The position numbers and the translations under genes are program-made. The notes beneath the pieces are model-generated. The model had not been told where the DNA came from and ran no database searches. It saw only the letters and a program-made list of their open reading frames with translations. From the NCBI GenBank assembly GCA_017510985.1, contig JAFWLR010000012.1:1-61663 (forward strand): DNA of 61,663 nt, written 5' to 3'. The DNA comes from Candidatus Saccharimonadota bacterium (GTDB lineage Bacteria; Patescibacteriota; Saccharimonadia; Saccharimonadales; Saccharimonadaceae). Shown one piece after another: positions 15,065 to 52,882 of the stretch; position 1 is the stretch's first letter, and the number at the start of each line of letters is the position of its first letter.

Positions 15065-16408
15065 TTAGCTGTTAACAACACAACGAATATATCGTCCTAC
15101 ATATTTGACCCACCCGCCAACCTCTAGTTGGGAATTTATATGACGTAAAACATATTGGTCACCGGGTCCATACGCAGTTGATGACCACCAATTGCCTCTG
15201 CTGACTGGATAATTAAGAACTCCATTATCATAGAATCCACCATAAATAGGCGAAAAGATAGCTGTATTGTTAGTTATATTAATAATTTGATTACTAGTTG
15301 GCAATGTCCAATTGGCAGGGCAAATATTTTCCGACCCAGAATATGCTTCATTTTCACTACAAGCACCGTCGCCACTTTTTGCCGAAGCCGCACAAAAATT
15401 ATAGTACACACCTATTTCGTTTGTTGTAAGACTAGAAGCTTCTAACTCCAAATTTGTTGGTATATGATAGTATGCTTTGACATAATTGTTGCCAAGTGCC
15501 AAATCCCCATCGAATACGATACTATTGGCGTTAAAATTTGATCCTTGACCTAGGATGGTGCCTTCTGGTTGATTCTCTGTATGAGTGATACGTAGATTTT
15601 GCGTCATCCAACAATGGCCATTGATTTTGGCTATAGAGTAGTCGTTATTGTCTCGGATATCTATAACTCGTAATTCAGATCCTTCTGTAGCCGTAGCGCA
15701 AATAGCAGGTGACATATCCTGCATTTTGTAGTAACCATTGTACATAATCTTACCTGCTGCGGCATAGGAATCAGCTAGACTTAAGGGTTCTTGATAAGTT
15801 ACTGCATAGAAGTTAATAGTATTAGTGTATTCTCCTGCTGCTTGAACATTACTAGCTTTAGCACCTATCTTAAACTGAATAGGATTAGTACTAGTAGATT
15901 CTTCTGTATCTATGAGAGTAATACCAGTAGTACCAGAATCATTATTATCTAGTGGTAAACCATTATAACCAGTGACTGTGCTACTTATATTACCACTAAT
16001 CCAAGTAGTACCAGAATCAGTAGAATAAGAGTATCCCCAAGTATTATCATTAAAGTTAGCTAAAGAAGCTTTATTAGTAGTTAAATTAGTGAACTTATTG
16101 GTGTTATCATTACTATTTAATCTTAAGTCTGTATAGTTGGTATTACTAGTACCTACTGTAGTAGATAAATGATAACCAGCTAGTGAGTTAGTAGCTACTG
16201 CTACAGTAATGATATTGCTATCCTGACTACTACCTGGTGCTAGTTCGTCTATAATTAAGTCACCAGAAACAGAAACACTAATAGAGGGGTTGATGGTGAA
16301 GTTGATGCCGGCTGAACTGCTATATTCTAAGGCGGAAACATGATTATTACATATAATAATACCTACTATACTAATAATTGTTGTTGTAATGATTGTTTTT
16401 GCCTTCAT
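15065..16408 (-). CDS. FISUMP-domain secreted protein, paralog with shared N-terminus
   Basis: This 447-residue protein has a signal peptide (about 1-26, MKAKTIITTTIISIVG... ending VSA), then a roughly 190-residue Ser/Thr/Asn-rich segment with FTINPSISVSVSGDLIIDEL, closely like the N-terminus of the gene at 53191, then NGYYKMQDMS and a FISUMP domain with HCWMTQNL, ICPANWTLPTS, WWSSTAYG and YIRCVVNS. Probably a cell-surface binding protein. Its C-terminus keeps the AT-rich composition of the gene, unlike the GC-rich ends of three paralogs. The start follows an AAAGGCAAAGCGAGGC purine-rich stretch, also found before 53191. Codons are dominated by ACT, AGT, AAT and GGT. Confidence 0.88.
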   Translation of the reverse strand: MKAKTIITTTIISIVGIIICNNHVSALEYSSSAGINFTINPSISVSVSGDLIIDELAPGSSQDSNIITVAVATNSLAGYHLSTTVGTSNTNYTDLRLNSNDNTNKFTNLTTNKASLANFNDNTWGYSYSTDSGTTWISGNISSTVTGYNGLPLDNNDSGTTGITLIDTEESTSTNPIQFKIGAKASNVQAAGEYTNTINFYAVTYQEPLSLADSYAAAGKIMYNGYYKMQDMSPAICATATEGSELRVIDIRDNNDYSIAKINGHCWMTQNLRITHTENQPEGTILGQGSNFNANSIVFDGDLALGNNYVKAYYHIPTNLELEASSLTTNEIGVYYNFCAASAKSGDGACSENEAYSGSENICPANWTLPTSNQIINITNNTAIFSPIYGGFYDNGVLNYPVSRGNWWSSTAYGPGDQYVLRHINSQLEVGGWVKYVGRYIRCVVNS

Positions 16409-16440
16409 GTTTGCCTCGCTTTGCCTTTAAATATCCTTTT

Positions 16441-16563
16441 CCCAGCGGTGCCATTTTGTCATGAAAGGCGTACACTAAAAATGGCACCGTAGGTGTCATA
16501 AGTCAATAACTCGTCCAGCATAAAGCTCGTCGAAGCTAATGGCTATCCTACGATGCCATTTCT
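16441..16563 (-). promoter_or_regulatory. Structured FISUMP leader, copy 1
   Basis: Read on the minus strand: AAATGGCATCGTAGGA inside a stem GAAGCTA/TAGCTTC, then CCTACGGTGCCATTTTT, then GTGTACGCC, then AAAATGGCACCGCTGGGAAA, followed by the start codon about 33 bases on. Three elements (one complementary to the other two) allow mutually exclusive hairpins. The same order occurs at 33027 and 52768, also upstream of FISUMP genes, with different but still complementary flanking stems. Confidence 0.7.
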
Positions 16564-16710
16564 AGCTTCCACGAACAATGATATTAAAATGTGCCGGACT
16601 TTTGATTGTTATTAACTTATGACATTTTTATTTTATCATACAAAATCCCGCCCGAAAAGTCTTGTTTTTCATTAATTTTATGTTGTAATATGTTATTTTT
16701 GACAGAGATA

Positions 16711-16750
16711 AAAACGCTCATGCTGTAATTTTTCAGAGTGGGGTGTTGAC
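16711..16750. repeat. 40-bp sequence shared with 54911-54950
   Basis: AAAACGCTCATGCTGTAATT here matches AAAACACTCATGGTGTGATT at 54911, followed in both by a TCA-AG-GG-G-TTGA pattern. Both lie beside FISUMP genes. Here the end of the repeat supplies the -35 of the following promoter. Confidence 0.4.
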
Positions 16751-16774
16751 TTTGTACTTATGGCATGCGTATAA
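16745..16774 (+). promoter_or_regulatory. Strong promoter of unidentified RNA
   Basis: TTGACT at about 16745 and TATAAT at about 16769 with an 18-base spacer are the best sigma-70-type match in the window outside rplJ. The transcript would begin near 16781 in AGCAGCGG and contains no long reading frame. Confidence 0.75.
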
Positions 16775-16780
16775 TAGCAG

Positions 16781-17062
16781 CGGTTGGGCGGAGTTTAATT
16801 CTTTTCTAGTATAGAGTCTTGGTGTGGGCCCGTATGACCTTTGTCTACGCGGGGGCTTTATATAGCTATCCTAGTTAGGCTATGGTCGTTAAGTCCCCAT
16901 TTTATTAACTACTAAAATGGAAAGGATGCTAGTAGTGAGAAAGCGATTTGTTTTCGTACTGGCAGTACGACTATTTAGAAAAGAGATTACCATCCGTATA
17001 GGATGGTAATCAACTTCGTTTGACCTTGAATGGGGGCTACTAGGCCTCATTCTTTAATTTGA
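16781..17062 (+). ncRNA. Unidentified structured RNA of about 280 nt
   Basis: Between a strong promoter and a terminator-like hairpin there is no plausible coding frame but a series of stems: GGGGCTTTA with TTAAGTCCCC enclosing CCTAGTTAGG, CCATTTTA with TAAAATGG, CGTACTGGCAGTACG, GATTACCATCC with GGATGGTAATC, and a final GAATGGGGGC with GGCCTCATTC then TTTAATTT. ACTAC in one loop can pair with GTAGT in the following single strand, a possible pseudoknot. I do not see the hallmarks of tmRNA, RNase P RNA or SRP RNA. It could be a divergent 6S-like RNA or a new class. Confidence 0.6.
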
Positions 17063-17070
17063 TTGTAGCA

Positions 17071-17676
17071 CTAGTGGTTGATTTTGTCTAGGATTTCGGT
17101 GAAAATTTCGTCGATAGTGCCGGAAGCGTCGATTAAGTGGAGGTTGAAATCTTGCGCGATTTTGGGATAGGCGGCGTTGACTTTTTGCTGAAATTCGTTG
17201 GGCTTAGCCTCAAAAGTTTCGGTAGCTTTACCGCGATCTTTTTGGCGGGCAAGGCGAACTGCGTCTGGAACAGTAAGGATAAAACCGTAGTCTGGCGTGA
17301 AATATTTGGCGGGCAAAGTGTCTTTGGTGATTTTGATGATTTTACTGCGAGAAACTCCTTCACCGTAACCTTGATAAGCGAGTGTGGACCAGTAATTACG
17401 AGAGGATACAACAACTCCGCCGCGTTTTAAGACTGGCTCGGCGATTTTTTTCCAAAGCTCAACACGCGCAGCGGTGAATAATAAAACATTGGTGAGTGGT
17501 TCTAGATTGTAGCCACGAGCGAGAATCATATCGTGCAAATCATGGGCTTGGGGCAAGTCGCCATCTGGCTCTTCAAGCATGACAACTTCCTGGCCTTGTT
17601 TAGTGTAATAATCTTTGAGCAGCTCGGCTTGAGTGGATTTGCCGGTGCCGTCTTGACCTTCGATGACAATATACAT
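17071..17676 (-). CDS. tmk: Thymidylate kinase
   Basis: This 201-residue enzyme phosphorylates dTMP to dTDP. The P-loop GQDGTGKSTQ is at the N-terminus, and the segment SSRNYWSTLAYQGYGEG resembles the DR(Y/F) substrate-binding region. The start MYIVIEGQDG at 17676 is chosen because the minus-strand TATAAT (17688-17683) is exactly six bases upstream, implying a leaderless message; an upstream extension of 12 codons is unlikely. It is divergent from ung and shares overlapping -10 sequence with it. Confidence 0.94.
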   Translation of the reverse strand: MYIVIEGQDGTGKSTQAELLKDYYTKQGQEVVMLEEPDGDLPQAHDLHDMILARGYNLEPLTNVLLFTAARVELWKKIAEPVLKRGGVVVSSRNYWSTLAYQGYGEGVSRSKIIKITKDTLPAKYFTPDYGFILTVPDAVRLARQKDRGKATETFEAKPNEFQQKVNAAYPKIAQDFNLHLIDASGTIDEIFTEILDKINH

Positions 17677-52628: not shown

Positions 52629-52767
52629 GAATTTTAGCTTTGATGGGTTTCGGCAGATTTTGGCGAATTGTGTGGATTGATTTTTTATGGTTGATTTTGA
52701 TGGGAATGTGAATTATAATAAAAGAGCAATAGTTCAATGATTATTTATTTTATGTCATAGCCAATAG

Positions 52768-52872
52768 AAATGGCATCATAGGGTGTCCAATTGGTTATGA
52801 TAATCGTTGGACTATTGCACCCCCTGTGGTGCCATTTTTGTATACGCCTTTTGCTAAAATGGCACCGCTGGG
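52768..52872 (+). promoter_or_regulatory. Structured FISUMP leader, copy 3
   Basis: AAATGGCATCATAGGG lies inside stem TCATAGCC/GGTTATGA, then CCCTGTGGTGCCATTTTT, GTATACGCC and AAAATGGCACCGCTGGGAAA. Matches copies at 16441 and 33027 in order and spacing. Here a 273-bp inverted-repeat element separates it from the gene start at 53191. Confidence 0.68.
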
Positions 52873-52882
52873 AAACATTAAC

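Follow-up and report, generated by a model that had tools for sequence, protein, structure and literature searches.

A candidate type I toxin–antitoxin family with a predicted β-hairpin peptide in one genus of Saccharibacteria

Introduction

A locus in the window, by which we mean the whole 61 663 nt stretch of Saccharibacteria DNA analysed here, almost certainly comprises a short coding frame carried by a structured mRNA and an antisense RNA gene that overlaps its 3′ end. We interpret it as a type I toxin–antitoxin family without detectable relatives in one Saccharibacteria genus and, from comparative analysis of the sequences, place the probability of this reading at about three in four. From the asymmetric decay of its copies we infer that the peptide probably harms the cell that produces it. 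An earlier note on this DNA had described a free-standing noncoding RNA with its own promoter, structured and belonging to no known family. The promoter, the structure and the lack of a known family hold, but the RNA is neither free-standing nor noncoding; it is a short message overlapping an antisense gene. A further promoter, on the opposite strand (17090–17062), and the antisense gene that it drives had been overlooked.

Results and discussion

Organization of the locus and fold of the mRNA

The features of the locus and of its surroundings are listed in Table 1.

Table 1. Features of the candidate toxin–antitoxin locus (window coordinates unless another locus is named)
Feature	Position	Strand	Basis and remarks
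Peptide mRNA promoter, TTGACT-18-TATAAT	16746–16775	+	Sigma-70 type, 11/12 consensus; same place upstream of P1 in relatives
Structured peptide mRNA, ~275 nt	16782–17055	+	z = −7.5; paralogues and relatives; inferred ends, based on promoter and 3′ hairpin
P1 5′ strand, GGTTGGGCGGAGTT	16782–16795	+	14 bp with 17012–17025; 5′–3′ helix
P1 3′ strand, AACTTCGTTTGACC	17012–17025	+	Swap test
Leader helix P2, 5′ strand	16810–16819	+	Pairs with 16853–16862; 94% of cells paired, compensatory changes in 4/10 pairs
Leader helix P2, 3′ strand	16853–16862	+	Pairs with 16810–16819
5′ kissing loop CCTAGT	16870–16875	+	Complement of 17039–17044; 98% of cells paired, covariation
Shine–Dalgarno GGAAAGG	16919–16925	+	Sequence; relatives have AAAGGAG(G) in this position
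Putative toxin ORF, MRKRFVFVLAVRLFRKEITIRIGW, GTG start, 24 aa	16935–17009	+	In-frame N/S ratio; profile match
3′ hairpin, terminator-like, GAATGGGGGC..CCTCATTC	17028–17052	+	Compensatory changes in 7/7 pairs
3′ kissing loop ACTAGG	17039–17044	+	Swap and covariation tests
Antisense promoter TAGACA-17-TACAAT, TG-extended	17062–17090	−	10/12; position conserved in relatives
Antisense RNA, ~80 nt, putative antitoxin	16976–17056	−	z = −4.3; covariance model R1; ends inferred
Antisense intrinsic terminator, GATTACCATCC..GGATGGTAATC TCTTTTCT	16977–17011	−	Terminator scan; covarying hairpin then T-run in relatives
Surface protein genes beside module	15065–16408; L033, 1–504; L034, 4728–5433	− (window)	

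The near-consensus promoter and the terminator-like final stem that had been noted earlier are both present, and the RNA between them is strongly structured, with a fold of −106.4 kcal/mol compared with −72.0 ± 4.6 kcal/mol in dinucleotide shuffles (z = −7.5). The named structure has 29 pairs, including those of the leader helix and of the 3′ hairpin and those by which a leader loop kisses the loop of that hairpin. It is 90.4% paired in 34 aligned RNAs, with changes on both sides in 20 of the 29 pairs, against 13.7 in shuffles and at most 12 in slid controls. The kissing contact, previously suspected as a possible pseudoknot, is now backed by covariation: the Watson–Crick total is 192 over 35 distinct loop pairs and falls to 155 ± 4 when the 3′ loops are exchanged among loci, with none of 20 000 swaps reaching the observed value. 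Two loci have a switched loop core, CCAG/CTGG and CTGG/CCAG. P1, the 5′–3′ helix, is locus-specific, with a family mean of 7.64 bp against 6.39 ± 0.14 bp in swaps. Swap and covariation tests support a model in which the mRNA is held by the 5′–3′ helix and by the contact between the leader and 3′ loops.

Read on the opposite strand, the 3′ hairpin also forms the hairpin at the 5′ end of the antisense RNA. Complementarity between the leader loop and the 3′ loop means that the hairpin loop of the antisense RNA repeats the leader loop sequence, and the two may compete for one contact. In silico, removing the 3′ UTR left the Shine–Dalgarno sequence no more accessible than before (mean unpaired 0.50 both ways) in a pseudoknot-free model, which omits the kissing contact, so that activation by 3′ trimming in the style of hok or AapA is not supported by that folding model.

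Coding evidence and predicted shape of the peptide

Side-by-side reading of the relatives shows a short frame and a Shine–Dalgarno sequence at a matching position (MFIEFNFVIRFGSKTKKITIRIEW and MRRRFVFALVVRLFRKEITIRIEW), the window counterpart of which is (GTG)RKRFVFVLAVRLFRKEITIRIGW. Coding potential, which had been denied to this RNA, is evident from the conservation of the frame as protein. Among 76 loci with a start and a Shine–Dalgarno sequence, the N/S ratio (nonsynonymous over synonymous change) is 0.13 for the coding frame, against 1.28 and 1.23 for the two others; detection of these loci with the peptide profile biases the in-frame value downward. Over the first 15 codons, the part of the ORF that the antisense overlap does not cover, the in-frame ratio is 0.08; for the whole ORF and this part together, the other frames range over 0.81–1.47. 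Peptides of 24–28 aa with a start and a Shine–Dalgarno sequence occur in at least 73 loci; the small protein genes of type I systems usually have fewer than 60 codons. In addition, 11 loci detected solely by the antisense model have an ORF of 23–31 codons with a Shine–Dalgarno sequence and an ATG in the same position, and their peptide sequences are unlike.

These data bear on the earlier note's view of the locus as a new structured RNA without coding potential. The stability of the fold (z = −7.5) and the absence of an Rfam match are in its favor: a covariance search against Rfam 15 at gathering and permissive thresholds matched no family at the locus and hence, as had been stated before, neither tmRNA nor RNase P nor SRP. 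The reading frame is nevertheless conserved together with its start and Shine–Dalgarno sequence, as is the antisense gene, and this explanation, already disfavored, is very improbable.

The peptide is short, cationic in most cases (mean net charge +2.9) and amphipathic as a β-strand, its N-terminal half having a moment of 2.13 at 170° (β) against 0.53 at 100° (α). AlphaFold2, given a shallow alignment and the frame plus some untranslated residues ahead of the peptide, predicts two strands, one per peptide half, with block pLDDT values of 81–87. The predicted fold is a β-hairpin, and on these predictions the peptide does not take the hydrophobic α-helical transmembrane form of membrane-associated type I toxins. 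Searches of Pfam, NCBIfam, PADLOC, PHROGs and PDB sequences gave no significant peptide match, including to the AapA, Fst/Ldr, Hok and TxpA/BsrG peptide families; such searches have weak power for peptides this short. In three loci (L152, L162 and L156) frameshifts within or close to the A-rich codons for Lys-Lys disable the peptide and the rest of the mRNA is retained; these may be pseudogenes or cases of phase variation.

The antisense RNA gene

The antisense RNA starts at the mRNA 3′ hairpin, with its promoter immediately beyond the hairpin, and the predicted transcript is by position a perfect complement of the final codons, of the 3′ strand of P1 and of the 3′ hairpin. Its terminator sits within the last codons of the ORF, where the conserved Lys-Lys codons appear on the antisense strand as the T-run; relatives retain this T-run and show covariation in the antisense hairpins. 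Covariance model R1 matches the window copy with E = 6e-10, this copy having been among the sequences from which R1 was built. The antisense gene overlaps 91 of the 93 loci found by peptide, an agreement that is partly tied to the peptide because the model contains the end of the ORF.

The promoter statistics, unlike this overlap, are independent of the peptide. An antisense promoter of at least 10/12 is present in 57 of 94 loci, against 1.8% of dinucleotide shuffles. Among the loci with an intact peptide, all 73 have one of at least 8/12 at a fixed position and 57 have one of at least 9/12, compared with 9.9% of shuffles. The antisense promoter is closer to consensus than the sense promoter in 46 of 63 cases.

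Many antisense promoters (L079, L083, L101, L123 and others) contain a perfect or nearly perfect inverted repeat centered on the −10 element, CCTGCTACCAT..ATGGTAGCAGG, which is not found in window-type copies and is perhaps an operator. Eleven loci (L219–L230) share the antisense layout and encode short, basic, unrelated-looking peptides, such as MAIRFSFWKIKITVTLSIKRKAKEKR and MTQIALVIINFGKKSKQPKKKRLGLKA, behind a different leader; the superfamily is probably wider than the window-type copies.

Distribution and decay of the copies

Conservation in related Saccharibacteria, which had been proposed as a check, extends across the genus. The window genome (60% complete, 14 contigs) contains two more copies, on contigs C5 and C1, and related species hold further ones. 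The peptide profile matches in 43, after widening 52, of the 174 genus genomes, and the antisense covariance model, used without the peptide, in 71. Peptide and strong antisense matches together define 113 loci in 60 genomes, distributed patchily with 1–6 per genome. The search covered 393 genomes from 156 genera of the order; in the 155 genera other than this one, no convincing match came from either the peptide profile or the antisense model. A single outside peptide match (G098) was rejected, as it lies within a 217-codon open frame without an antisense match. All leader-pattern matches with names are Saccharibacteria assemblies, mostly from the gut of goat, sheep or buffalo, and the leader pattern is absent from viral contigs. 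RNase III is present in all five near-complete relatives.

In these genomes, which are drafts, the copies decay asymmetrically. Of the peptide loci, 17 have been disabled (through a truncation, a frameshift or leader loss), and 13 of these keep an antisense promoter of at least 9/12. Eight further loci, in a set for which the antisense model selects intact antisense genes, have the antisense gene and lack the peptide start, several through internal deletions that spare the antisense gene as well as the sense promoter. No locus has an intact peptide without an antisense promoter. Such asymmetry is what a harmful peptide and a protective antisense RNA would be expected to produce. The strong purifying selection on the peptide and its predicted β-hairpin, which is not the usual helical toxin, could also suit a non-toxic small-protein gene with a normal job (for example, binding to the ribosome or to a membrane protein), the level of which is tuned by the antisense RNA. 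We consider this unlikely: start-deleted copies retain an intact antisense gene and never the reverse, the distribution is patchy with 1–6 copies per genome, and the antisense layout is common to very unlike peptides.

Neighboring genes

The genes downstream of the module vary (tmk, hrcA, eno, nrdG and smpB). An ORF within a structured RNA, directly upstream of smpB in one relative, might be taken for a divergent tmRNA, a leader peptide or an attenuator, but this is scarcely credible, as the locus has neither a tRNA-like domain nor a tmRNA match, up to six copies occur per genome and the ribosome-binding site is canonical; moreover, the downstream gene is often convergent, which leaves no fixed target for a leader or attenuator. 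Whole-genome tmRNA matches were of tRNA length and fell below the cut-off, and were rejected.

All three module copies in the window genome adjoin a FISUMP surface protein gene starting ..NFTINPSISVSVSGDLIIDELAPGS.., a motif that is beside the module in none of the other genomes sampled; the link was therefore dropped as a general feature, as it holds in the window genome alone. The three-of-three association, together with the elaborate conserved fold, speaks for a dual-function regulatory RNA of the RNAIII/SgrS type, with the sense or antisense RNA acting in trans, the peptide secondary and, in the window genome, the neighboring surface protein genes as a conceivable target. Its restriction to one genome, the variable downstream genes and the selection on the reading frame make this distinctly improbable, and we retain the toxin–antitoxin interpretation.

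The leader of the FISUMP gene in the window contains nested inverted repeats around AAAATGGCACCG (window 16440–16640, − strand; the observation also takes in 52765–52875, + strand). Similar DNA occurs at ~6 other sites in the genome, several of them upstream of genes with the same surface-protein N-terminus, and is possibly a shared structured leader or a recombination site. Elsewhere in the window, 2771–2924 matches the ribosomal protein L10 leader (RF00557) slightly over the gathering score.

Proposed mechanism

In the mechanism that we propose, the mRNA leader would be locked to its own 3′ hairpin both by P1 and by the kissing of the CUAG loops. With the leader loop sequence in its 5′ hairpin loop, the antisense RNA would begin pairing at the loop of the mRNA 3′ hairpin and then zip into the ORF; the resulting duplex would expose the mRNA to RNase III, or translation would be blocked. 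If antisense transcription were halted or the module lost, the peptide would be made. A broader proposal, which we hold tentatively and with rather less than even confidence, is that of a genus-specific type I superfamily in the candidate phyla radiation that combines a β-hairpin toxin, a kissing-locked mRNA and an antisense loop that repeats the leader loop and competes for its contact.

Given that Saccharibacteria have very small genomes and are presumed to live on other bacteria, 1–6 addiction-like modules per genome would be surprising if true and might matter for stress, defence against phages or host dependence. The peptides would then widen the structural range known for type I toxins, and the kissing-loop lock would offer a model of riboregulation open to testing with more than 100 natural variants. 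We found no paper in the open-access literature that names type I toxin–antitoxin systems with Saccharibacteria or Patescibacteria.

Comparison with known systems

With hok/Sok, the window family shares a short peptide mRNA with a 5′–3′ closed, covarying fold. Sok pairs with the leader and the mok frame, whereas a mok-like frame was not identified in the window family, and release by 3′ trimming is unsupported in its folding model. The AapA/IsoA systems of Helicobacter pylori are alike in having several chromosomal copies, a peptide of ~30 aa or less, a cis antisense RNA, a long-distance 5′–3′ helix in the mRNA and kissing loops (PMC6733600, PMC8167048). IsoA1 binds aapA1 by kissing loops and RNase III cuts the duplex (PMC8167048); in the window family, by contrast, the kissing contact supported by covariation is intramolecular, inside the mRNA, the antisense RNA covers the end of the ORF and the 3′ UTR, and no sequence similarity to AapA/IsoA was seen.

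The Gram-positive systems TxpA/RatA, BsrG/SR4 and Fst RNA I/RNA II resemble the window family in their convergent toxin mRNA and antisense RNA, which overlap at the 3′ ends (PMC4147584, PMC5848175). They differ in that the antisense terminator of the window family lies inside the coding sequence, with its T-run complementing conserved lysine codons, and that the peptide is unrelated. Membrane-associated type I toxins of known structure or mechanism are described as α-helical (PMC8309996), as is AapA1, so the predicted β-hairpin of the window-family peptide would be a real difference. The mRNAs of hok and AapA are closed from 5′ to 3′ (PMC6733600), and the layout of the window family is the 3′ overlap of TxpA/RatA and BsrG/SR4 (PMC4147584) joined to this closed mRNA.
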